Translations under genes and position numbers: made by a program
The notes under the pieces: model-generated
The model's database searches: none
Told to the model about the DNA's origin: nothing
What the model saw: only the letters and a program-made list of their open reading frames with translations
Source: Tildeniella nuda ZEHNDER 1965/U140
GTDB lineage: Bacteria > Cyanobacteriota > Cyanobacteriia > Leptolyngbyales > Leptolyngbyaceae
Direction of reading: 5' to 3'
NCBI GenBank assembly: GCA_019358895.1
Contig: JAHHIG010000002.1
Location: forward strand, 496,001-560,000
Length of the DNA stretch: 64,000 bases
Part shown: piece by piece, positions 13,717-46,535 of the stretch
Layout: the number at the start of each line of letters is the position of its first letter
Position numbering within the stretch: position 1 is the first letter of the stretch

Positions 13717-14643
13717 TCACACCACAGATCGCTTGCGATACTGATTGGGTGGCTCCCCCATCTGACGCTTAAAGGCTTTGCTAAATGCCGTCTCAGATTC
13801 ATATCCGACTCGTTCAGCAACCTCTCCCACCGTCAAATTGTGCGATCGCAACAACTCAACCGCCCGTACCATCCGCCAACGAGTGACATATTGCAGCGGT
13901 GCTTCTCCCATTAACCACTTGAAGCGGGCGGCAAATCCAGAACGGGACAGATTCACTCGTTTTGCCAGATTTTCGACCGTCCAGTTGGCTTCAGGTTGAT
14001 GGTGGATCAGTGCCAGAGCAATGCTGATCTGTGGGTCAATCAATCCGCGTAACCAACTGCTATCATCCGGCTTTAAGCTACTGAGATAAGCTCGTATCGC
14101 CTGAATAAACACAATATTCGACAGATACGTAATCATCATTTCTGCCCCCGGACGGTTTGATGCCGTTTCGCAGGCGATGAATTGCAGTGTGGAATCTAGC
14201 CACTCTACTGCTCGTCCTGCTTCTCCTTTAATCAGCAAGAGTGGCGGCAGGGCAGCGAGTAAGGGATTGATCTCACGATTTTCAAAACTGGCTTTACCGC
14301 ACAAAACCGTTGTTCCAGTTCCACCGCCACCGTAGTTGAGCGTCAATTGTCCCTGACAGGGGCGATGAGATAGTAGTTCTCCCAGGGTGACGACGGGGCG
14401 ATCGGGGCGATCGCGCAACGCATGGGCAACGCCTGTTGGTAGTACCACCAGATCACCCTCCACCAGCGGAATCTGTTCGTCTACCCCTGCCACTTCCAGC
14501 CAGCAGTGACCGCGCATCACCACATGAAAGGAAGCATCTGCCATTGCCTCCATCTGCACCCCCCAGGGGGCAGAGAATTCGGAGCGACAATGAACGGTGC
14601 TGTGTAGTTTGACAGATTTAAGAATTTCGGTCAGAGCATCCAT
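13717..14643 (-). CDS. AraC family regulator with cupin sensor domain
   Basis: DNA-binding regulator of 308 residues. The N-terminal half is an AraC-type cupin (SFHVVMRGHCWLEV, LVEGDLVVLPTGVAHALRD). The C-terminal half (about 205-305) has two helix-turn-helix motifs: NLAKRVNLSRSGFAARFKWL and VGEVAERVGYESETAFSKAF, ending with the usual PxQYR. It is divergent from the NmrA-type reductase gene at 14753 with 109 bp between, so that gene is the obvious target. Relatives commonly sense small electrophiles or aromatic compounds and activate a neighbouring reductase; the ligand here is unknown. Confidence 0.9.
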   Translation of the reverse strand: MDALTEILKSVKLHSTVHCRSEFSAPWGVQMEAMADASFHVVMRGHCWLEVAGVDEQIPLVEGDLVVLPTGVAHALRDRPDRPVVTLGELLSHRPCQGQLTLNYGGGGTGTTVLCGKASFENREINPLLAALPPLLLIKGEAGRAVEWLDSTLQFIACETASNRPGAEMMITYLSNIVFIQAIRAYLSSLKPDDSSWLRGLIDPQISIALALIHHQPEANWTVENLAKRVNLSRSGFAARFKWLMGEAPLQYVTRWRMVRAVELLRSHNLTVGEVAERVGYESETAFSKAFKRQMGEPPNQYRKRSVV

Positions 14644-21375: not shown

Positions 21376-21849
21376 TCACACGATAAATTCGATGCCATAC
21401 TTGGGTGCTGCTGCCAAAACTCGGTTGATCGCTTCAGGAGTAGCTGGGCGCGATGGAGATTCTGGATCGTCTACTGGAACGCCAACTTCAGCAAAGTATT
21501 TTTCAATTCCCGCAGGTATACACCAAACCAACATCTTGGCACGTTGGTTCGTGATGTTCTTGAAGTGATGCAGATGACCCTTCGGCGAATACAAGAAAGT
21601 TCCAGGGGTAGCAATTACAGTTCGATCGCCGAGATGAAACTCCAGTTCGCCCTCTTGGATATAGAACGCCTCATCTTCTCGATGGTGAATGTGGGGCGGC
21701 GGTCCAATTTCAGGATCAACTCGTAACTCGAAGAGCGTGTATTGTCCGTTGGTGTCTTCGCTCACTGCCTTGAAGGTCAGAATATCTCCGACAACGGAAA
21801 GGGACTACCCTTGAGATGGCTCAATCAATAGTTCACGAGAGGTAGTCAT
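21376..21849 (-). pseudogene. Cupin-domain protein with in-frame amber codon
   Basis: ATG 21849 has an AGGAG ribosome site 7 bp upstream and reads MTTSRELLIEPSQG, then TAG (21805-21807), then SLSVVGDILTFKAVSEDTNG and an intact cupin (PPPHIHHREDEAFYIQEGELEF, SPKGHLHHF). The family normally has a sense codon where the TAG stands, so this is a nonsense mutation at codon 15. Re-initiation at an in-frame GTG at 21765 could still yield a 129-residue cupin missing its first strand. Its promoter is also split by a MITE. Confidence 0.8.
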
Positions 21850-21911
21850 TGCATTTCTCCTAGTAGTTCAACAGTTATCAGTATTGAGTTCTTGCTGTTT
21901 GATGTCTCCAA

Positions 21912-22184
21912 AGTGTAGTGAGTTGAAGTACCTGACCTGATTGCCTGACAAAAGTCCTGAAAGGCTTACGGCTTCGCTGCTTACCCGCCCGTGATTAAAA
22001 TCCGGGCTAATAGCCTGAAACCCGTTGAAACGGGTTGAAAGTCCCTTGCAGTCCTCTTTAGAGGACTTTCCCCCGTTAGCCCGCACTTTCAGTGCAGGGC
22101 GGGTCAGGCGATTGCAGAAAGATTTGTCAGGCAACCAGGTACCTGACTGCTATCAGATTCTTACAATGATTTGTCAGATGCTTG
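21912..22184 (-). promoter_or_regulatory. Shared-regulon promoter 1, split by the MITE
   Basis: Two direct half-sites on the minus strand, at 22174-22184 (CAAGCATCTGA) and 22153-22163 (TAAGAATCTGA), at 21-bp period. The -10-like TACACT is at 21912-21917. Without the MITE and one target copy the half-site to -10 gap would be 24 bp, as in the sister promoters. Target: the cupin gene at 21849. Confidence 0.65.
21937..22138. mobile_element. MITE, 202 bp, with 9-bp target duplication
   Basis: 16-bp terminal inverted repeats CTGATTGCCTGACAAA (21937-21952) and its inverse at 22123-22138 (one mismatch). They are flanked by identical 9-bp direct repeats GTACCTGAC at 21928-21936 and 22139-22147. The interior has no gene but several hairpins, including the perfect GTCCTCTTTAGAGGAC (22051-22066) and AACCCGTTGAAACGGGTT. 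A non-autonomous element mobilised by some DDE transposase making 9-bp duplications. Confidence 0.85.
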
Positions 22185-22264
22185 TGATGAACGTTCGCAG
22201 CTAGTCGCGCCCTGCGACAATAATCTTTTCGGCTAGACCGATAGGATTAGAAAATCACCTTAAA

Positions 22265-23038
22265 TTAGCCCGCCATGAGTCCACCATCGATCGCGAAAGG
22301 TTGACCTGTAATGTAGCTGGCAGCATCCGAACATAAGAACACAACCGTTGCAGCAATTTCTTCAGGTTGACCCATTCGCCCCATTGGGACACTGGACGAT
22401 GCCATCGACTCAAACTGCTCTGAGGTTATACCCATCTCTTGGAGGCTCTGAGGAGACACGATGTCTGTGCCGCGAAAATAGCCAGGATTGACAGCATTAA
22501 TCCGAATCCCTTGCTTGGCATAATCGAGTGCAGCAGAACGAGTCAGACCCATCACCGCGTGTTTGCTTGCAGTATAACGACCAGAGCCAGGTCTGCCAAT
22601 CAATCCCGCGACTGAAGAGGTGTTGATGATCACCCCTGCTCCTTGAGTCAGCATCTGTTGAATTTCATATTTCATACACAAGAACACACCCCTCAAGCTA
22701 ATCGCCATCATGGTGTCAAAGTCTTCAGCAGACTGCTCATGGAGTGGTTTGGGAGGTTTACCAAACCCAGCGTTATTGAAGGCAAAATCTAACCTGCCGT
22801 AACTGGCGACTGTTTTCTCGATCAGTGCCTTTATATCCGTTTCACTCGATACATCCGATCGCACAAACAAACACTCTGCTCCCGTCTCTCGAATCAGAGC
22901 CGCAGTTTCTTCACCTTTTGCTTCCTGTCTGCCGGAGAACACTACTGTTGCACCCGCCGCACCGAACCCGATCGCAGTTGCTCGACCAATTCCCGCAGTT
23001 CCTCCCGTTATTAAGGCAACCTTATTTTCTAGCATCAT
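22265..23038 (-). CDS. Classical SDR family oxidoreductase
   Basis: Short-chain dehydrogenase/reductase of 257 residues, close in form to FabG/glucose dehydrogenase types. Cofactor motif TGGTAGIG, the NNAG strand motif (FAFNNAGF), catalytic Ser (INTSSVAG) and YTASK are intact, as is the C-terminal [12 protein letters not shown]. The substrate is unknown. Two adjacent ATGs can start it (23038 or 23035). It follows the NTF2-fold gene by 5 bp, so both are read from the promoter at 23664-23724. Confidence 0.93.
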
Positions 23039-23043
23039 GATCT

Positions 23044-23637
23044 TTACCTACTATGACTAGCACGATCGATTAGTGTATTTGAGGGCAAGTTCCGATCCAT
23101 CAACTTACGCGCACTATCAACGCCCACAATGGGCAGTTTTTCAGCATCAAGCAAGCCGATTTGCACCAAAATACTCGCCTGATCCCAGTAGAGGTGTTCA
23201 TGGGCTATCTTGCCATCACGAAACCGAATAATCGCGACCACTGGCACTTCAACCCGTTTCCCGGTCGGAGCAACACTGGGCAGCATCCAGTCCATCTGGA
23301 TCGTATGAGTGAACTTCGCCACCATTTCATCGATGAGTTGATCCGTCCCGATCGTGCGCGAAATCGGAACTAGCTCGAAGTCTGGCGGAACCTGGGGAAT
23401 GAAATATTTGGAATAAAACTCACCCACTGCTGCTTTCCCGACTCCCCCAGTCATCACTGGAATATCATTCACGTAAGCGTCTTCAACCATCGTGGCGAGC
23501 GCATCTTCAGTGCTGTGAGTACCAAACTCGTGCCCGATATGCTCTTCCCAAACCGCTTGTAAGGCTGCCTGAGCGGGTGTCAGGTTGGGGGTTGCCTGTA
23601 CATTTTCTTGTTTGTCTACTGTTTGCTCTGTGACCAT
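23044..23637 (-). CDS. NTF2/SnoaL-fold protein
   Basis: A 197-residue protein with an N-terminal 25-residue polar extension and one SnoaL-like domain: [55 protein letters not shown] and [25 protein letters not shown]. The [12 protein letters not shown] segment is typical of ester-cyclase-like members that bind small aromatic or polyketide ligands. The ribosome site TTAGGAG is well placed. First gene of a two-gene operon with the SDR downstream, under a shared-regulon promoter. Confidence 0.85.
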
Positions 23638-23663: not shown

Positions 23664-23724
23664 ACTGTATTGATTCCAATGCTTGATTTCTTTCAAATTC
23701 TTACGATGCCTTGTCAAATTCTTA
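23664..23724 (-). promoter_or_regulatory. Shared-regulon promoter 2
   Basis: Two identical half-sites TAAGAATTTGA at 23714-23724 and 23693-23703 (21-bp period), 23 bp, then -10-like TACAGT at 23664-23669. The start codon of the NTF2-fold gene is 26 bp further. This is the most symmetrical copy of the motif. Confidence 0.7.
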
Positions 23725-26571: not shown

Positions 26572-26991
26572 TTAGGTGTTTGCCCATCGCTCACTCACAA
26601 TCCTTGGGTTCCAATATTCTCGGTAATGAACGATAAGACCATTCCTTGTTTCCAGTCGCATCACATACTCTTGTTGATAGGGAATACCTGTGGCGGCGAT
26701 GACCGCTTCCCCCTGAACCTCAGCCCATAGAATATTTGAGTCTGTTGTTGGATAGACCCGAATATTGGTAAACCTCAAGTCTTGCAACTTCGCTACTGCA
26801 TTTTTGAGGTAGTTGTATATCACTTCTTTACCTTCTAATCGTTTGGGTGTATCGAAAGCGTATGGATATTCAACGACTGCATCTTCGGTATACAGGTTCA
26901 TCAAGGCTTGAACATCTTTAACGATCAGCGATAAAAAAGAGGTAAAGACCTGAGTAACTGTCTGTTTTGCTTGATCTGATACGGGTTGCAT
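26572..26991 (-). CDS. SnoaL-like NTF2-fold protein
   Basis: Small NTF2-fold protein of 139 residues: FTSFLSLIVKDVQALMNLYTEDAVVEYPYAF, LEGKEVIYNYLKN, WAEVQGEAVIAATG and VMRLETRNGLIVHYREYWNP. This is the usual layout of SnoaL-like isomerase/cyclase relatives of unknown substrate. The ATG at 26991 follows AAGGAG at ideal spacing, so upstream in-frame starts are rejected. It heads an operon with the NmrA-like gene. Its first residues MQPVS are repeated in a truncated mini-ORF at 33928-33999 that follows a copy of the same promoter. Confidence 0.88.
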   Translation of the reverse strand: MQPVSDQAKQTVTQVFTSFLSLIVKDVQALMNLYTEDAVVEYPYAFDTPKRLEGKEVIYNYLKNAVAKLQDLRFTNIRVYPTTDSNILWAEVQGEAVIAATGIPYQQEYVMRLETRNGLIVHYREYWNPRIVSERWANT

Positions 26992-27018
26992 AAAATTCTC
27001 CTTGTTGTATCTCATTTG

Positions 27019-27080
27019 AGTTTAGTGAGTTTTATTGCTTCACTTCTTTCAGATTCTTACAACGCTTCATCAGATTCTGA
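27019..27080 (-). promoter_or_regulatory. Shared-regulon promoter 3
   Basis: Half-sites TCAGAATCTGA (27070-27080) and TAAGAATCTGA (27049-27059) at 21-bp period, 24 bp, -10-like TAAACT at 27019-27024. The site overlaps the 3' end of the upstream P450 gene (stop at 27057). Confidence 0.7.
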
Positions 27081-34026: not shown

Positions 34027-34066
34027 ATGTTAGTGAGTTCAATGCTTTACTTCTTTCAGATTCTTA
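34027..34066 (-). promoter_or_regulatory. Shared-regulon promoter 4 (one clear half-site)
   Basis: Half-site TAAGAATCTGA (34056-34066), 23 bp including AACTCACTA, then -10-like TAACAT at 34027-34032. The downstream 40 bp closely match promoter 3. The distal half-site at the expected 21-bp position is not recognisable. Confidence 0.55.
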
Positions 34067-37945: not shown

Positions 37946-38311
37946 TTAACGAGCTTGTTTCGGTGTCATACCAGTGAACCGCTTAAACTGCTGCGTTAAA
38001 TGGCTTTGACTGGAGAAGCCAACTTGTAGAGCAATATCTGCGATCGCCCAATTTGTTTTTGACAGCATCACTTCTGCCCGTTTCACTCGCTGTTGAATTA
38101 CATACTGATGTGGAGAAGTTCCGGTAGCATGTTTGAACAAACTGGCAAAATAAGTCGGGCTAATATGGACAACTAAGGCAATTTGTTCCAGGGACAGATC
38201 TCGTTCGCGTAGCGTCGGCTCTGCCGAATCGAGGTGAGTGTGAATATAATCGAGTGCTTGCTGCAACTGCGTGTGAGTTAAGCTTCGTTGTTTCAATGTA
38301 ATGGTTGACAT
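37946..38311 (-). CDS. Compact AraC-type DNA-binding protein (no sensor domain)
   Basis: A 121-residue protein that is essentially the AraC HTH module: LSLEQIALVVHISPTYFASLFKHATGTSPHQYVIQQRVKRAEVML and IADIALQVGFSSQSHLTQQFKRFTGMTPKQ. The usual N-terminal ligand domain is missing and a short insertion (SAEPTLRERD) precedes the first HTH. Stand-alone modules of this size (SoxS/MarA-like) exist, so it may be functional. It lies directly upstream of the BBE oxidase gene, which it may control. A candidate binder of the direct-repeat motif found in the island. Confidence 0.85.
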   Translation of the reverse strand: MSTITLKQRSLTHTQLQQALDYIHTHLDSAEPTLRERDLSLEQIALVVHISPTYFASLFKHATGTSPHQYVIQQRVKRAEVMLSKTNWAIADIALQVGFSSQSHLTQQFKRFTGMTPKQAR

Positions 38312-38404
38312 GGTTGAAATCTCAGCAAGGGTAGACAACAAAACAGGCAAAAGTTAGCCATCCTGTTAGATAGCTTGCTCGTCGTAAAAAAAGAAGTAAA
38401 AAAC

Positions 38405-38965
38405 TTAGTGGCTTATAGCGACAATCGCTTCCATCAACTGCGCCTTGTTCCAGCGTTCGGTATAGCGAACTCCATTGATAAACAGTGCTGGAGCAGATGT
38501 TACGCCACTGTTTAATCCACTTTTGATATCTTCATTGATGCGATCGACGTGCCTTTGCTTAGATAGGTCTTGCAGCAATGAGGAGATATCGAGTTCTAAC
38601 CGATCGGCATACTCCACCAGACAACCGTTATCTAGCGCGTGTTGATGGGTGAATAGCATCTTGTGCATCTGCCAAAATTGACCTTGCACTGCTGCGGCTT
38701 CTGCCACTTCTGCTGCCTTTCGTGCTTGGGGATAGATTGAATTCTCGATAAAATGACGGAACACGACACATAGCCAATTTTCCTGATGAAATACAGAATC
38801 GAAATGGTGTTGAATTGCCTGAATCAAACGATACACTTCCCCACACTGAGGAGATTGATAATTCCCATATTCCACAAGGACGACTGGAGCACTGAGTAAT
38901 CCCTGGTAGTGGTCGCGTTCTGAGGGGGGAACAAAGAGTTGATTGGCATTGCTATCTTGATTCAT
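38405..38965 (-). CDS. DsbA-like thioredoxin-fold protein lacking the first active-site Cys
   Basis: Thioredoxin_4/DsbA-fold protein of 186 residues without a signal peptide, so cytosolic. The motif is YQSPQCGE: the first Cys of the CxxC is Ser38 and only Cys41 remains. The helical insertion (ARKAAEVAEAAAVQGQFWQMHKMLF) and the cis-Pro loop GVTSAPALFINGVRY are intact. ATG at 38965 is preferred to the TTG at 38980. A disulfide exchange role is doubtful; a glutathionylation or peroxidase-linked role is possible. It may share a transcript with the AraC and BBE genes. Confidence 0.85.
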   Translation of the reverse strand: MNQDSNANQLFVPPSERDHYQGLLSAPVVLVEYGNYQSPQCGEVYRLIQAIQHHFDSVFHQENWLCVVFRHFIENSIYPQARKAAEVAEAAAVQGQFWQMHKMLFTHQHALDNGCLVEYADRLELDISSLLQDLSKQRHVDRINEDIKSGLNSGVTSAPALFINGVRYTERWNKAQLMEAIVAISH

Positions 38966-39192
38966 CGGACTATTTAGCAAAAAGGATTTCTCATGGCATC
39001 AAGGGATCGCCATGACTCAGATTTGTGACTTCTTCTGACTGAAAGGATTGAACCTCACCCTGTTATTGGTATGAATTCATCCTACGAAGTTAGTGCCGCA
39101 TTGTCGCCAACTCAGAGTTGAGCGTTTGCTGGGATGAAACGGCAATTGCGACCTATCTCTACCGCGAGTCAGCCACCGAACTTAAGTTCAGT

Positions 39193-39822
39193 TCATAACT
39201 CGGTGAGTCCTCGCTTCAACGCTTTAACAACGGCTTGAGTGCGATCACTCACGCCCAATTTGCTCAGAATTCGGTTGATGTGGAATTTGACCGTACTTTC
39301 AGTAATATGCAAAGCTGCCCCAATATCCTGATTACCCAAACCGTCTGCCATCAGATGAACGATCTCTTGCTCTCGCTGGGTCAACTCTGGATTCTTCATG
39401 CGCTGTACCAGTTTGGCAGCAACTTCAGGCGGAATATATTGTTGCCCGCTGTGAACGATATGAATGGCATTCAGGAGTTCATCTGGTTCAGCATCCTTGA
39501 GCAAATAACCTTTGGCTCCGGCGTGTAATCCCCGATAAATATCTTCGTCACCATCGTAGGTCGTTAGCATAATAATGCGGGCATGGGCAAATTCAGCACA
39601 GATTGCCACAGTCGCATCAACACCACTCATTTGCGGCATCCGTAAATCCATCAGGGTAACATCGGGCTGGTGTTGTCGATATTGCTCGATCGCGTCCTGC
39701 CCGTTACCTGCCTGACCCACCACCGTCATGTCTGGCTCATTTTCAATCATCGCAGCCAGTCCCTGGCGGACAATGGAGTGATCATCAACAATCAAAACGC
39801 GGATTGCTACAGACTGGCTCAT
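39193..39822 (-). CDS. NarL/LuxR-family response regulator
   Basis: A 209-residue two-component regulator. The receiver domain has the acidic pair DD at 13-14, the phospho-acceptor Asp59 in LMDLRMP, a conserved Thr (MLTTYDG) and Lys (KGYLLKDA). A LuxR-type HTH follows ([40 protein letters not shown]). Its start overlaps the stop of the huge sensor kinase gene (39819-39822, ATGA), so the two are translationally coupled cognates. DNA targets are unknown. Confidence 0.95.
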
Positions 39823-42800
39823 ACGGTTGCCTCCCGCTGCACAGATACGCTTACTTCTGTTCCCTGCCCTGGCTGGCTGTCAATTGAGAGTTGTGCTCCA
39901 ATATGTTCCGCTCGTTCGCTCATTCCTAGTAAGCCAAATCCCTGGCTTAGAGTTGTGCGGTTGACTTCAAAGCCTTGTCCATTGTCTCTAACTCGCAAGT
40001 AGCATTGGGTCGGTTTATAGACTAACTCAATCCGGATCTCGTTCGCCTGGGCATATTTAACCGCGTTCGTAAATGCCTCCTGTCCAATTCTCAGCAGGTT
40101 ATTCTCAGTGTCAGGAGGTAACGCATAGGGCGCACCACTAATCTCACAAATCAAGCGGGTTTCAGTTGAAGATTGCAGACTGGATACAAATTGCTTCAGT
40201 GCCGTCCATAGGTTGCCATCTTCTAGTAACTGGGGACGCAGTGCCGCAACCGATCGTCGAGCTTCTGTTAGCCCGCTCCGAGCCAGATCGCGCACGGTCT
40301 GAATATGCGATTGTATGGCGTCTGGGTTCGTTTTTGCTAATCGAGAAATGGCTCCCATGTGAACCAGGACACCTGTAAAGGCTTGTGCAAGAGTGTCGTG
40401 AATTTCGCGCGCCATGCGGTTGCGCTCCTCTAAAATTGAGGCGGCTTCTGCTTGCTTAAGAGCCGTAATATCTCGTGACAGCCAAATGACTCGCTCGTGC
40501 CGAATCGGGGCAATACGTGCCGAAAACCAGGTTTCTCGTCCATCTATCTGTAGGCTATATTCCACTGTGAGTACTTGTTGGGTTCTCAGCGCTTGCTGAA
40601 TGTAATGCATGAATGCATCGGCTTGTTCTGCTTCAAAGATCTGATGCAGTGTTTTACCAACCTTCTCCTCAACTGGGCTATACAACTGCCTCGGATTCCC
40701 TTCGATTGTTTCGATCACTCGTCCTTCAGCCGTGACAACACACAGCGGATCGGGAATGGCTGAAAAGAGCGCCCGTAGTTCTGCTTCAGAGGCTTGCAAC
40801 GCTACTTCTGCCTGCTTGCGATCGCTAATGTCCGAAATCACGCCTTCCATACATTCATCGGCAACATTCGGACGAGCAGAGTAAAGTGCCCAAAACAATG
40901 TGCCATCTCGTTTTCGCAACTGCACTTCAAAGTTTTGTAGTGTACCATCACGGTTAAGTAATTCGATCGCTCGCTGGCGATCACTGGAATTGACATAACA
41001 GTCAACACCATGTAGAAGCCCAATCACCTGATCGGGCGAATCGAAGCCAAATAGATTCGCAAAGCGTTGATTCGCATCGAGAATCAATCCATCCGAGAGG
41101 CGAGCGCGGAAGATGCCGACCTGTGAGTTCTCAAAGATGTTGCGAAACTTGGCTTCACTACGCTGTAGGGCTGCCTCCGCCTGTTTGCGCTGGGTGATGT
41201 CAGTGCCAACGGATAAAATTTCTACTAACTGCCCCTGTTCATCCAAGATGGCTTGATTTGACCAGGCAACCCAAACTCGTCTACCGTCTCGGCACAGGTT
41301 TTCTTTCTCGGTTTGCAGGTAAGATGCAGGATTGTGAAATAATTCGTGGATGAATTGTTCGACACTGCGTTCAGAAGTTTCACTTTCTGGACGGATCGTT
41401 TCTAACAGGGTACGCCCTAAAATCTGATGTTCCTCGTAGCCAAAAAATCTCAGCCCGTAATCATTCAAGAATCGAATTCGTCCTTGCGTATCAAAGCGAA
41501 TAATAATCGAATTTGCTGTCTGTACTAAGTTGCGATAGTTTGCTTCACTTTTTCGTAAAGCTGCTTCTGCCTGCTTGCGTTCGCTAACATCTCGCTGTAC
41601 TCCAAACTGACCGATGAGCCTGCCCTGGCTGTCATACAGACAGATGTAATACCCCTCAACCCACATTGCAGTCCCATCTAATCTGCGCTCATCCGTTTCG
41701 ATATGGAGCTTTCCGGCATCAAAGAGATGTCGCCATATCTCTTTTCTATAAGCTAGATCATGAGCAAATGCTTCTTTTGGGGTGATGCCAACAAATTGCT
41801 CTCGACTTGCCCGATACTGAGCCAGCATCGCATCGTTGATTTTTGTAATCCGCAGGTGTTCAAAGATGTAATCCAAAACCTGATCTTTATCAACGCTGCT
41901 ATCCCATTGCACAGGTTGATCCAGCATCATAATGAAAAAACCGTCAAGGGATTGGGCGAAAAACAGATTCAGAAGTTGCTCGCTTTCAAGCAAGGCATCC
42001 TCTGTGCGTTTGCGATCGCTAATCTCCTGTTGCAGGGCTTGGGTTCGCTCTTCTACTCTCCTTTCCAGTGTTTCGGCATGGTTTTCTAACTGCTGATACA
42101 ACCGAGCATTTTCCAGTGAAATTGCTGCCTGAGCAATCAACAGTTTGAGGACTTGCAAGCGATCGCTGGTAAACGCTCCGGTACTAAGATTGTTCTCCAG
42201 ATAAAAGATGCCGATCATCTGACGTTGCTTGAGAATTGGCATACAGAGGAGCGATCGCGTCTGCTGGTTTTGAATATACGGATCAGTTAAATAAGACGGC
42301 TCACTGACTGCATCATCGAACACCAGCGTTTCTTGAGTGCGTTCTACCAGGTGAATGACGGAGATAGGAATCGTTGCACAGTCAGCAACAGCAATCTTGT
42401 CCAGGTCGCACTGGTTACTGCCGCCGCATTGAGCCACCACAGTGAGCCGATCGTCTTCTAGAAGCATCAAAGCGCCTGTTTCGGCTCCGGCATTTTCGAT
42501 TACCACCTGCATCAACGTGGCAATTAATCGGTCGAGATAGATTATTTCTGAGAGCGCTTGAGCCGCTTTCATCACCGCCGCCAAATCGATCGCCTCAGTC
42601 GGATGACAGATCGTTTCATCAGTCACGATCGGATTCGATTGCTGAACCAGATTGGAATTGAGGAGTTGTGGATAGCGTTTTTCTAAATCTTCAACCTTAG
42701 CGGCTGCGCCCCAGCGATCGTAGCAATAATGCGCCTCTCTCATGTAGGTTTGGGCAATTTTTGACCGACCTCGCGCCAGATAATGGTTAGCCGCTAATTC

Positions 42801-45800
42801 ATAGGCTAATGCTTCTTCTTGAAGATAGTCATTCTCTTTGGCACCTTGAATAGCTCGTTCATAAAACTCCTCAGCCTCAAGAAATTGCCCCAAGACTCGC
42901 GCTTTCTCTGCTTCGACTAGATGAAATTTGTGCAGATAATTCATTGGGGCATGAGCTGCCCATTTTTGCAGCTTTTCTTGGTTGGTGCTAACACAACTTA
43001 GCCAAGCTACTTTTTCAGAACTTGAAGCCTCAACCCATAGGCTCAAAAGCACCAGAGAATCGTAGAAATAGAATAAAGTTACAACCGTTGTTGCTGTTAT
43101 CTTTTCTAAATACTGCCTGGCTAAAATAGCAGTTTGTGTAGCTTGATGATATTCTCCGAATAGATAGCACAGTATAACTTTGAATAAATAAAAGTAGTGA
43201 ATTTCATTTCCGTCTTTAACTGCAATAGCGTGCGCTAACGCTTGCTCTTCATCATACACACTACCCATTAACAGGCTGGGATTCTCAGACCTACCTAACA
43301 GATTCAGGATTGTCTGCCACAACATTGCAATCCAATTAGAGGGGTTTTCCCGTCTGATTTGTCTGATTGCTTTGCTGTAGGTTGCCGTTTTTTGTTCCAG
43401 TTGGGTGAGTGACTCACCGACAAAAAACGAGTGACAACATACATGATATGCAGCATAGCCAGCGAATTCAAAGTCTCCAGTTTCCACTCCGGTTTGATAA
43501 GCCTCAACCAGCATTGGTATTGTTTTTCTAAAATGCACCTTCCACTGCAGGATATGGGCACTCAATACCATTAACGCTTTAGCATTCCCTTTTTTGGTAT
43601 TCAATTGTTCTACCAAGTTGAGTGCCAATTGACCAAATTTATAACAGAGTTCAATATTTTGAACAACTCTACATAGAACCAGTCCGTAGGTAGCATAACT
43701 CAGCGGTGACCAGGTAGCATTGCCGTAGTTGATTGATAAACTGACCATTTTGCACGTAATTAGTATCATCAGTGCTGGTGATACCATCAATGCAGCAGTC
43801 CTGATATTCGTCAGGATGTACATCGCTGCCAGTGGTTCTGGTGCGGTCATCTTTGGTAGGTTAATTAAGTCTTCGATTTCTCGTCCAGCTAATAGCGCAG
43901 CCGTTGACTCTAATTCTCTTTGAATATCTATCTGACTGGGAGTTGCGATCAAGCTCACTCCTAGAAGATCCAACACTTCTAATCCAGTTTTGATTGCTTC
44001 TTGCAGGTTGCCCTGTGACAAATATCCTTGAATTTTGCTGTCGTAAGCCTGCACTTTGTTAACCACTGTCTTCGCATGGTTAAGTACTGCTTCTACGAAT
44101 TGTTCCATCTCATCAAAGCGACCGTGAAGATACGCCGCTTCCGCTGCTTCTGAGTACAGCGCTAAAGTTAGGTCATACTCACTCTGCCAATCTGGATTGA
44201 GGAGTTTAAGCCCTGTCTTGAAATACTGAAGCGCTGCTTCATAAGCCGTTGCTGCCTTGGCTTTCTGACCTGCCATTAAATTCAATCTGGCAAGTTCCGT
44301 TCGTTCGGGTTGAGCGGTGACAAGCTCAATTCCCTGGTTGAGATGATCTACGATTTCAAACAGCCGCTCTGACAATTGCTCTGGCGACATTTTTCCCAGT
44401 AGATTGCGCCCGATCTGCAAACGAACTACTTCTTTCTGCGACTCATCAATTAAGGCATAAGCCGCTTGTTGGACGCGATCGTGCAAAAACTTATAATCTT
44501 GAATCAGCAAATTCTCATCTAGCTCAGAGATCGGTAAGATTAACCCTGTTTGAATCGCGATCGCTAGCTCTAAAAAAAGTTGACGAACGGGTTTTTCACA
44601 AATCATTGAGAGCGTATCCAGGTCAAACTCATTGCCAACACAAGCTGCTAACTGTAGTATTTGCTGAACTGATTCTGGTAGTTTGCTTAACTTATTCGTC
44701 ATCAGCACAACGACATTATCGGTAATATCCATTGTCTGAATTTGTTCGATGTTCCATTGCCAATTGCGGCGATTGATATCAAACGTCAAACAATTCTCTG
44801 TGTATAGGTTTTTCAGGAACTCGTTGACAAAGAATGGATTCCCCTCTGTTTTACACAACGCTAGCTCTGCTAGAGAGCGAACAGTATCCATGTTGTGATG
44901 CAGCGTTTCAGCAATCAACTGACTCAACGGCTCTAGCGTTAAGGGGGCTAGAACAATCTCCTGAATCACTGCTTCTTGTTTTCGTAGACTCTCCAATGTT
45001 AATGACAGCGGATGCGTTGAACTCAGTTCATTCTCGCGATAGGCTCCAATCAAAAATAGAGAGTGAGTTTGTTCGTCTAGCAGCATCAACTCAATTAACT
45101 TCAGCGTGGCAGAGTCGATCCACTGCAAATCATCCAAAAACAGCACCAGCGGATGTTCCTTGGAGCAGAACACCCGGATGAACTGCTGAAAAACTCGATT
45201 AAAGCGGTTTTGTGCTTCTGTTGCTCCAACTTCCGCTACAGCAGGCTGCTTACCGATGATTAATTCCACCTCCGGGATTACATCAATGATCAGTTGTCCA
45301 TTACTTCCCACTGCCGCAAGCAGGCGCGATCGCCACTGCTGCACCTGCTCATCAGGCTCACCCAGCAACTGCTGAACTAACTCTCTCAGAGCATCCACGA
45401 TCGCGCTGTAGGGAATATTGCGTCCAAATTGGTCAAACTTACCAGAAATAAAATAGCCCTGCTTTGCTGTGATCGGTTTGTAGAGTTCCCGCACCAATAC
45501 TGATTTACCAACGCCTGCATAGCCAGAGACTAGCATCATCTCCACATTGAATTGAGCATTCTCCCTTTCAGCGAGTCGATCAAATGTCTCTAGTAATGCC
45601 TCAATCTCCGTTTCTCGTCCATACAGTTTTTGAGGAATGTGGAACTGCTCGGAAATATCTTGCAGACCCAGTTGAATGTTAACAATTTCATCACCTTGAA
45701 CAAATTGTTGAGCGCAATGCTCTAAATCTGCCTTGATACCCCAAGCGCTCTGATAGCGATCCTCTGCATTTTTTGCCATTAGTTTCAGAATCAGGTCTGA

Positions 45801-46535
45801 AACAGGTTTGGGAATCGCTGGATTTAACTTATGTGGCGGTACGGGTTGCTTTGCAATATGGCAGTGAACTAGCTCCAGAATGTCTGTCGTTGGGAATGGT
45901 AACTGTTCAGTCAGCAATTCGTAGAACGTTATGCCAAGCGAATAAAAATCGGTGCGGTAATCGAGCAAACGGTTCATTCGCCCTGTTTGCTCTGGAGAAA
46001 GATAGGCGAGAGTCCCTTCTAACTGATGCGGACTCCTGAAAACGGGGTTCGTGCGGTTAAATCGAGTGGCAATCCCAAAGTCGATGATTTTGACAATACC
46101 AGTCTCTAGATTAAGGACAATATTACTAGGGTTAATATCTCTATGAATGAGATTAGCAGCATGGATTTTGCCGAGAGTATCAGTAAGCTTAATTGCTAGT
46201 TGAAGGAAATTAGATAGAGGCATTGGGCAGAATGCTTCTGGACACTGCTGCATCCATCTCTCGATCGATTCTCCGCCAAAATCTTCTAAGAGAATTGCGA
46301 GTGTGCGTTGATAGTCTTGTTGACTATATGCCTTCACAACCCCTTCTAAATCGAGCGATCGCGTAATCTCATACTCCTGTCGATACCGGGTTAATTCTTG
46401 AGGAGAAGGATAGTCTTGCTTCAGCAGTTTGACGACGATGGGGCAATTATCTTGCGCTCTGATTCCCCGATACACCAGAGAGGCTGCACTCTCGTAGATT
46501 GGGCTTTGGATCGTCACTCCAGGCAGGGCAACCAT
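39819..46535 (-). CDS. Giant hybrid Ser/Thr kinase - AAA - GAF - PAS - histidine kinase
   Basis: A 2238-residue cytosolic multi-sensor. Ser/Thr kinase domain at about 1-275 (VVK 34-36, HRD 131-133, DFG 152-154), then an AAA/AAA16-type ATPase (Walker A 338-345 GYAGVGKS, Walker B near 463-468 LVLFLDD). A long helical TPR-like region runs to about 1290, then a GAF domain and a coiled coil, four PAS domains each ending in the ERKQAEAAL / DRKQAEVAL linker, a HisKA_3 domain (REIHDTLAQ, His2046) and a HATPase. Anabaena HstK-type proteins share this order. Cognate of the overlapping response regulator. It may integrate redox or small-molecule signals; the ligand is unknown. Confidence 0.93.
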   Translation of the reverse strand: MVALPGVTIQSPIYESAASLVYRGIRAQDNCPIVVKLLKQDYPSPQELTRYRQEYEITRSLDLEGVVKAYSQQDYQRTLAILLEDFGGESIERWMQQCPEAFCPMPLSNFLQLAIKLTDTLGKIHAANLIHRDINPSNIVLNLETGIVKIIDFGIATRFNRTNPVFRSPHQLEGTLAYLSPEQTGRMNRLLDYRTDFYSLGITFYELLTEQLPFPTTDILELVHCHIAKQPVPPHKLNPAIPKPVSDLILKLMAKNAEDRYQSAWGIKADLEHCAQQFVQGDEIVNIQLGLQDISEQFHIPQKLYGRETEIEALLETFDRLAERENAQFNVEMMLVSGYAGVGKSVLVRELYKPITAKQGYFISGKFDQFGRNIPYSAIVDALRELVQQLLGEPDEQVQQWRSRLLAAVGSNGQLIIDVIPEVELIIGKQPAVAEVGATEAQNRFNRVFQQFIRVFCSKEHPLVLFLDDLQWIDSATLKLIELMLLDEQTHSLFLIGAYRENELSSTHPLSLTLESLRKQEAVIQEIVLAPLTLEPLSQLIAETLHHNMDTVRSLAELALCKTEGNPFFVNEFLKNLYTENCLTFDINRRNWQWNIEQIQTMDITDNVVVLMTNKLSKLPESVQQILQLAACVGNEFDLDTLSMICEKPVRQLFLELAIAIQTGLILPISELDENLLIQDYKFLHDRVQQAAYALIDESQKEVVRLQIGRNLLGKMSPEQLSERLFEIVDHLNQGIELVTAQPERTELARLNLMAGQKAKAATAYEAALQYFKTGLKLLNPDWQSEYDLTLALYSEAAEAAYLHGRFDEMEQFVEAVLNHAKTVVNKVQAYDSKIQGYLSQGNLQEAIKTGLEVLDLLGVSLIATPSQIDIQRELESTAALLAGREIEDLINLPKMTAPEPLAAMYILTNIRTAALMVSPALMILITCKMVSLSINYGNATWSPLSYATYGLVLCRVVQNIELCYKFGQLALNLVEQLNTKKGNAKALMVLSAHILQWKVHFRKTIPMLVEAYQTGVETGDFEFAGYAAYHVCCHSFFVGESLTQLEQKTATYSKAIRQIRRENPSNWIAMLWQTILNLLGRSENPSLLMGSVYDEEQALAHAIAVKDGNEIHYFYLFKVILCYLFGEYHQATQTAILARQYLEKITATTVVTLFYFYDSLVLLSLWVEASSSEKVAWLSCVSTNQEKLQKWAAHAPMNYLHKFHLVEAEKARVLGQFLEAEEFYERAIQGAKENDYLQEEALAYELAANHYLARGRSKIAQTYMREAHYCYDRWGAAAKVEDLEKRYPQLLNSNLVQQSNPIVTDETICHPTEAIDLAAVMKAAQALSEIIYLDRLIATLMQVVIENAGAETGALMLLEDDRLTVVAQCGGSNQCDLDKIAVADCATIPISVIHLVERTQETLVFDDAVSEPSYLTDPYIQNQQTRSLLCMPILKQRQMIGIFYLENNLSTGAFTSDRLQVLKLLIAQAAISLENARLYQQLENHAETLERRVEERTQALQQEISDRKRTEDALLESEQLLNLFFAQSLDGFFIMMLDQPVQWDSSVDKDQVLDYIFEHLRITKINDAMLAQYRASREQFVGITPKEAFAHDLAYRKEIWRHLFDAGKLHIETDERRLDGTAMWVEGYYICLYDSQGRLIGQFGVQRDVSERKQAEAALRKSEANYRNLVQTANSIIIRFDTQGRIRFLNDYGLRFFGYEEHQILGRTLLETIRPESETSERSVEQFIHELFHNPASYLQTEKENLCRDGRRVWVAWSNQAILDEQGQLVEILSVGTDITQRKQAEAALQRSEAKFRNIFENSQVGIFRARLSDGLILDANQRFANLFGFDSPDQVIGLLHGVDCYVNSSDRQRAIELLNRDGTLQNFEVQLRKRDGTLFWALYSARPNVADECMEGVISDISDRKQAEVALQASEAELRALFSAIPDPLCVVTAEGRVIETIEGNPRQLYSPVEEKVGKTLHQIFEAEQADAFMHYIQQALRTQQVLTVEYSLQIDGRETWFSARIAPIRHERVIWLSRDITALKQAEAASILEERNRMAREIHDTLAQAFTGVLVHMGAISRLAKTNPDAIQSHIQTVRDLARSGLTEARRSVAALRPQLLEDGNLWTALKQFVSSLQSSTETRLICEISGAPYALPPDTENNLLRIGQEAFTNAVKYAQANEIRIELVYKPTQCYLRVRDNGQGFEVNRTTLSQGFGLLGMSERAEHIGAQLSIDSQPGQGTEVSVSVQREATV

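Follow-up and report, generated by a model that had tools for sequence, protein, structure and literature searches.

A MITE with IS10-like ends has probably split an activator-dependent promoter of a cupin gene in a cyanobacterial genome

A MITE of the IS4 family with IS10-like ends has very probably inserted itself in a cupin gene promoter, splitting the activator sites from the -10 hexamer, and the gene has most likely lost its regulated expression as a result. The locus lies in a stretch of 64,000 nucleotides (G000:C11:496001-560000, hereafter the window) of a 6.08 Mb draft genome; its features are listed in Table 1. Transposition between the tandem half-sites and the -10 would have copied 9 bp of the target. 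At the intact promoters of this group, an activator bound to the half-sites would contact RNA polymerase directly alongside, while the insertion would move the half-sites 211 bp away. With 211 bp added, the activator would no longer be able to touch RNA polymerase and, as this contact would be lost, the cupin gene would not be induced and its regulated expression would disappear. Judged from the sequence, the gene has most likely lost its activator-dependent promoter. Insertions of this kind are common, but here each part can be compared with dozens of related sequences, and the locus can be viewed as a natural experiment, in which an element of a known family, together with its duplication, splits a promoter readable from ∼30 intact relatives.

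Table 1. Coordinates of the split promoter, the inserted element, the neighbouring genes and the candidate regulators (window positions)
Feature	Position	Strand	Remarks
-10 hexamer TACACT	21912..21917, start 21917	-	35 bp from box start, insertion discounted
Proximal half-site box TAAGAATCTGATAG, putative activator site	22150..22163, start 22163	-	box in three window sisters and ∼30 in relatives
Distal half-site CAAGCATCTGACA	22172..22184, start 22184	-	21-bp direct repeat in many sister promoters
Sister promoter 2 box	23690..23703	-	before SnoaL-like gene 23044-23637; box to -10, 34 bp
Sister promoter 3 box	27046..27059	-	before SnoaL-like gene 26572-27015; box to -10, 35 bp
Sister promoter 4 box	34053..34066	-	box to -10, 34 bp
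MITE, non-autonomous element, putatively IS4 family	21937..22138	.	further copies in own genome and relatives; 12-copy alignment A2
Left terminal inverted repeat CTGATTGCCTGACAAA	21937..21952	+	equals IS ends in L175 and L174 save base 8
Right terminal inverted repeat CTGGTTGCCTGACAAA (reverse complement)	22123..22138	-	
Target-site duplication, left copy GTACCTGAC	21928..21936	.	identical to 22139-22147
Target-site duplication, right copy GTACCTGAC	22139..22147	.	
Multi-hairpin core of the MITE	21983..22107	.	MITEs with different ends have homologous cores
Cupin gene downstream of the split promoter	21376..21849	-	Cupin_2, E 2e-16
Ribosome-binding site AGGAG of the cupin gene	21857..21861	-	seen in sequence
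Remnant of alpha/beta-hydrolase-like gene, last 17 codons and stop (FSNPIGLAEKIIVAGRD*)	22201..22254	-	
Gene of a short-chain dehydrogenase (SDR), preceding the split promoter	22265..23038	-	same strand as the cupin gene
HTH-only AraC-family gene, best activator candidate	37946..38350	-	HTH_AraC, E 7.6e-27
NarL/LuxR-type response regulator, rival or upstream regulator	39193..39822	-	histidine kinase at 39819-46535

The promoter model, a box followed by a -10 at 34-35 bp, holds. Across the relatives, the TAAGAATYTGAAAG box lies 34-35 bp upstream of a TACACT-like -10 in ∼31 promoters, measured from start to start; often a second copy of the box stands 21 bp before it, at the distance that also separates the two half-sites of the split promoter. 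The box, its second copy and the -10 at this spacing make up the predicted signature of the regulon. When unique sites are counted, the -10 of the intact promoters is found at 35 bp in ∼28 of 32, at 34 bp in three and at 33 bp in one. At the split promoter, 246 bp separate the box start from the -10 start, and with the MITE in place no TACACT-like hexamer is found at the expected spacing from the box; subtracting the element and one 9-bp copy leaves 35 bp. The insertion point lies between the half-sites and the -10, as the original prediction had it, and removal restores the spacing of the intact promoters. The further claim of the same 24-bp gap in the sister promoters is exact for one of them (35 bp start to start), while the closed site is 1 bp longer than in the other two (34 bp). 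In relatives, a deviating spacing was sought among uninterrupted promoters of this type, and these keep the spacing of the emptied site.

When the flanks are joined, the resulting sequence can be aligned across the junction without interruption to promoters in G008 and G022 (84.6% over 65 bp) and, less closely, in G013 (74% over 101 bp); these are all other promoters of the group, not the orthologous locus. An orthologous empty site, with the same gene in the same place and no element, was not found in any searched genome, the search having been conducted via the SDR gene within the genus, with the cupin protein in 58 genomes, and in 80 further contig loci. None of the searched genomes has the cupin gene in the equivalent place, and no close cupin homologue stands behind such a promoter in the 58 genomes and 80 loci, the only candidate being a 30%-identical cupin in G011 (L101).

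The element is 202 bp long and adds 211 bp to the locus together with one copy of the duplication. Its boundaries had been predicted from the inverted ends and the direct repeats, and both are as described: the 9-bp repeats are identical at all nine positions on the two sides, and the 16-bp inverted ends agree at 15. The inverted ends and site-specific duplications of other copies bear out the same boundaries. The element has no transposase gene, as the longest frame across it encodes 88 aa and extends into the flank. Its core contains four stem-loops (CCCGCCC..CGGGC, AACCCGTTGAAACGGGTT, AGTCCTCTTTAGAGGACT and GCCCG..CGGGCGG), and the entire element folds far better than shuffled sequences (z of -6.2 as DNA and -6.3 as RNA); an Rfam scan of 21500-22500 yielded no match.

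Further copies, sought as a check, were located in the genome itself and in relatives. The own genome has seven matches to the MITE, with one more full-length copy (87%), the others being diverged or partial. Among the relatives, which are Leptolyngbyaceae-like and Nostocales, 17 of 57 have matches, some with more than 10 copies. The duplications at other copies vary and are 8-10 bp long, e.g., CATTAGCAC, GTTGCTGAT, CAGCTTGCC and GTAAGGTAG (9 bp), or CGGTGAACTC, GACTTATGAG, GCGCTAAGAG and GTTTAAAGTG (10 bp). A flanking duplication of 8-10 bp with at most one mismatch was found at 22 of 63 candidate end-pairs; random pairing of left and right flanks in 200 trials gave a mean of 0.41 and a maximum of three. 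As the flanking repeats differ at the site of each copy, they are target duplications, and not a part of the element carried along in all copies. The element is thus shorter than 600 bp, has inverted ends, varying duplications and multiple copies, and shares its ends with insertion sequences, which makes it a MITE. Separately, four 142-bp elements that bear these ends and do not differ in sequence (L160, L161, L164 and L165, on contigs C21, C24, C36 and C38 of G000) occupy four sites with four different duplications, and their identity at differently duplicated sites indicates recent amplification.

Insertion sequences with matching ends, likewise sought as a check, were found in other genomes. 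A search with the end sequences initially located L152 in G006 (1308 bp, ends CTGATTGACTGACACA), and closer end matches were then provided by L175, from G005 of the same genus, and by L174, from G040. The former (L175:1471-2757) is 1287 bp long, with the ends CTGGTTGACTGACAAA and CTGATTGACTGACAAA; at base 4, the two ends of the window MITE differ by A/G, and so do those of this IS. L174 is flanked by a 9-bp duplication, CCGCTTATC, while the ends of L152 and L175 have none; L152 is possibly a recombined copy. Its transposase scores above the cut-off for DDE_Tnp_1 (PF01609; 27.4, cut-off 23) and below the curated NCBIfam cut-off for the IS4 model NF033591 (127.8, cut-off 152; E 5e-37). The Y-x2-R-x3-E-x6-K (YREK) motif is present in the transposases of all three. 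In the own draft genome, no IS with matching ends was found among the PF01609 neighbours, and the best transposase is only 31% identical. At base 8, the window copy has C in both ends, where A stands in the IS and in almost all of the other copies, so that the change is matched between the ends.

The IS4 family is characterized by duplications of ∼10 bp, and its IS10 subgroup by 9-bp duplications, a length of 1200-1350 bp and ends that begin with CT (PMC2266710). Here, the ends, which start with CTG, the 1287-bp parent, the 9-bp duplications and the DDE transposase with YREK are all similar to the IS10 subgroup. By contrast, the duplications are 9 or 10 bp, not strictly 9, and the transposase falls under the NCBIfam IS4 cut-off. 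By its size, CT ends and duplication length, rather than by a tree, the parent IS fits the IS4 family, with IS10 as the nearest subgroup. Nezha and other cyanobacterial MITEs, as summarized from Zhou 2008 in PMC10969869, are short, non-coding, mobilised in trans and present in many copies, with inverted ends; the window element shares these general features, the likeness being one of description.

The cupin gene itself has an in-frame TAG at codon 15 (21805-21807), where homologues have a sense codon, and the remainder of its frame is intact. Because of this stop, it is probably a decaying gene. Upstream of the promoter, only a remnant of the hydrolase-like gene is left; the full-length gene adjoins the SDR gene in the congener G005 (L229:18514-19248) and also follows one of the sister promoters in G013 (L242). 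The 17-codon remnant means that the stretch underwent deletion too, and it thus shows three kinds of decay, namely deletion, insertion and a premature stop.

Could the half-sites and their spacing be coincidental, with no regulated promoter ever having existed at this place? The 12-base half-site motif with two mismatches occurs 18 times in the whole window against 24.5 expected, which would agree with chance. However, a longer box pattern, when one mismatch is allowed, occurs in 12 of 58 genomes but not once in the reversed control, the distance to the -10 recurs in the ∼31 promoters mentioned above, and in relatives the boxes cluster with the same set of genes, making coincidence highly improbable. 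An activator may also still act at a distance by DNA looping: the added 211 bp amount to 20.1 turns of 10.5 bp, so the helical phase is nearly kept, and this is compatible with looping.

We favour the loss of regulated expression also over a harmless insertion, in which read-through from the SDR gene, or a promoter in the MITE or at its edge, would keep the cupin gene transcribed, with the hairpins perhaps shaping the RNA. In favour of such an account, the two genes are on the same strand and might be read through, the RNA structure formed by the MITE would be very stable (see the z above), and some bacterial MITEs have outward promoters (review PMC10969869). Yet a scan of 21780-22270 for sigma-70-like promoters found none on either strand, a terminator-like hairpin is present on the minus strand at the junction of the duplication and the element end (22147-22126), and the cupin frame is stopped early in any case, so that this account seems unlikely. 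A hybrid promoter that uses the outward-facing TTGTCA of the MITE end was rejected, as its spacer to TACACT would measure 28 bp and no such promoter came up in the scan. A stronger contender, to which we give somewhat less than even chances, is that the stop at codon 15 predates the MITE, and the insertion was neutral in an already dead, decaying stretch. The TAG and the deletion just upstream that left the hydrolase remnant are in line with this order; the events are undated, however, and the intact rest of the cupin frame speaks against it.

Promoters of AraC/XylS-type activators provide a frame for the boxes, since direct repeats at 21 bp fit AraC-type binding. The promoters described here are similar to these in having direct half-sites 21 bp, or about two helical turns, apart, with the proximal one reaching the -35 position, beside or over it, and in the absence of a -35 hexamer, which the intact promoters of the group lack. 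From this architecture we infer an AraC-type activator as the protein bound at the boxes. Compared with AraC/XylS promoters, the binding protein here is a candidate, the product of the HTH-only AraC gene, suggested by co-occurrence and adjacency. Close homologues of this gene adjoin the promoter box in most of the relatives that have it, and the boxes in relatives cluster with the HTH-only AraC gene, a DsbA-like gene, a LuxR-type response regulator and a very large histidine kinase (2238 aa in the window). Of the genomes searched, nine have a close AraC homologue, and among these are six of the seven genomes in which a zero-mismatch promoter occurs (hypergeometric p 1.4e-5, uncorrected for kinship); with the sites in G002 and G031 added, each of the nine has one such promoter or more. 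A rival possibility is that the response regulator acts on the promoters instead of the AraC protein. Another AraC gene, with a Cupin_6 domain (13717-14643), was rejected as the regulator, as its matches near the promoters reach an identity of only 32-40%, against 65-76% for the HTH-only gene. In the window, the redox and SnoaL-like genes that have the common box (starts at 22163, 23703, 27059 and 34066) form, with the adjacent regulators at 37946-46535, a conserved predicted regulon, which occurs in several cyanobacterial families.

In relatives, hairpin cores ∼70-78% identical to that of the window MITE bear different ends. The comparison covered the loci L344, L345, L346, L353, L354, L351, L348, L369 and L341. 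Homologous cores are located between CTNAGATCTTGCACC ends with 4-bp duplications in G009 and G025, between GAGGATGTTTGAAAAGT ends in G025, G009 and G033, and between AACGTGAGTTCG ends in G009. Conversely, in the own genome the IS10-like ends of the window element also occur on other cores, in elements of 142, 153, 162 and 167 bp, and they flank no fewer than three unrelated cores; segments of the 142-bp core are also present without these ends. A common core between unrelated ends suggests core exchange between MITE families. The MITEs here may be composed of interchangeable modules, with independently spreading, palindromic multi-hairpin cores and ends borrowed from unrelated IS families, a reading that we consider evenly balanced. 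If true, it would provide a lead on how non-autonomous elements arise.

Very small repeats inserted within other repeats were reportedly described in cyanobacteria by Elhai in 2008. A 25-bp repeat, GTAGGCTTTGCCTTCCCGAAGGGTA, that resembles them by description is found inside hairpin loops of some MITE copies (L026:1591-1615 and L338) and is absent from the window copy; elsewhere in the genus, it occurs at up to 14 places per genome.
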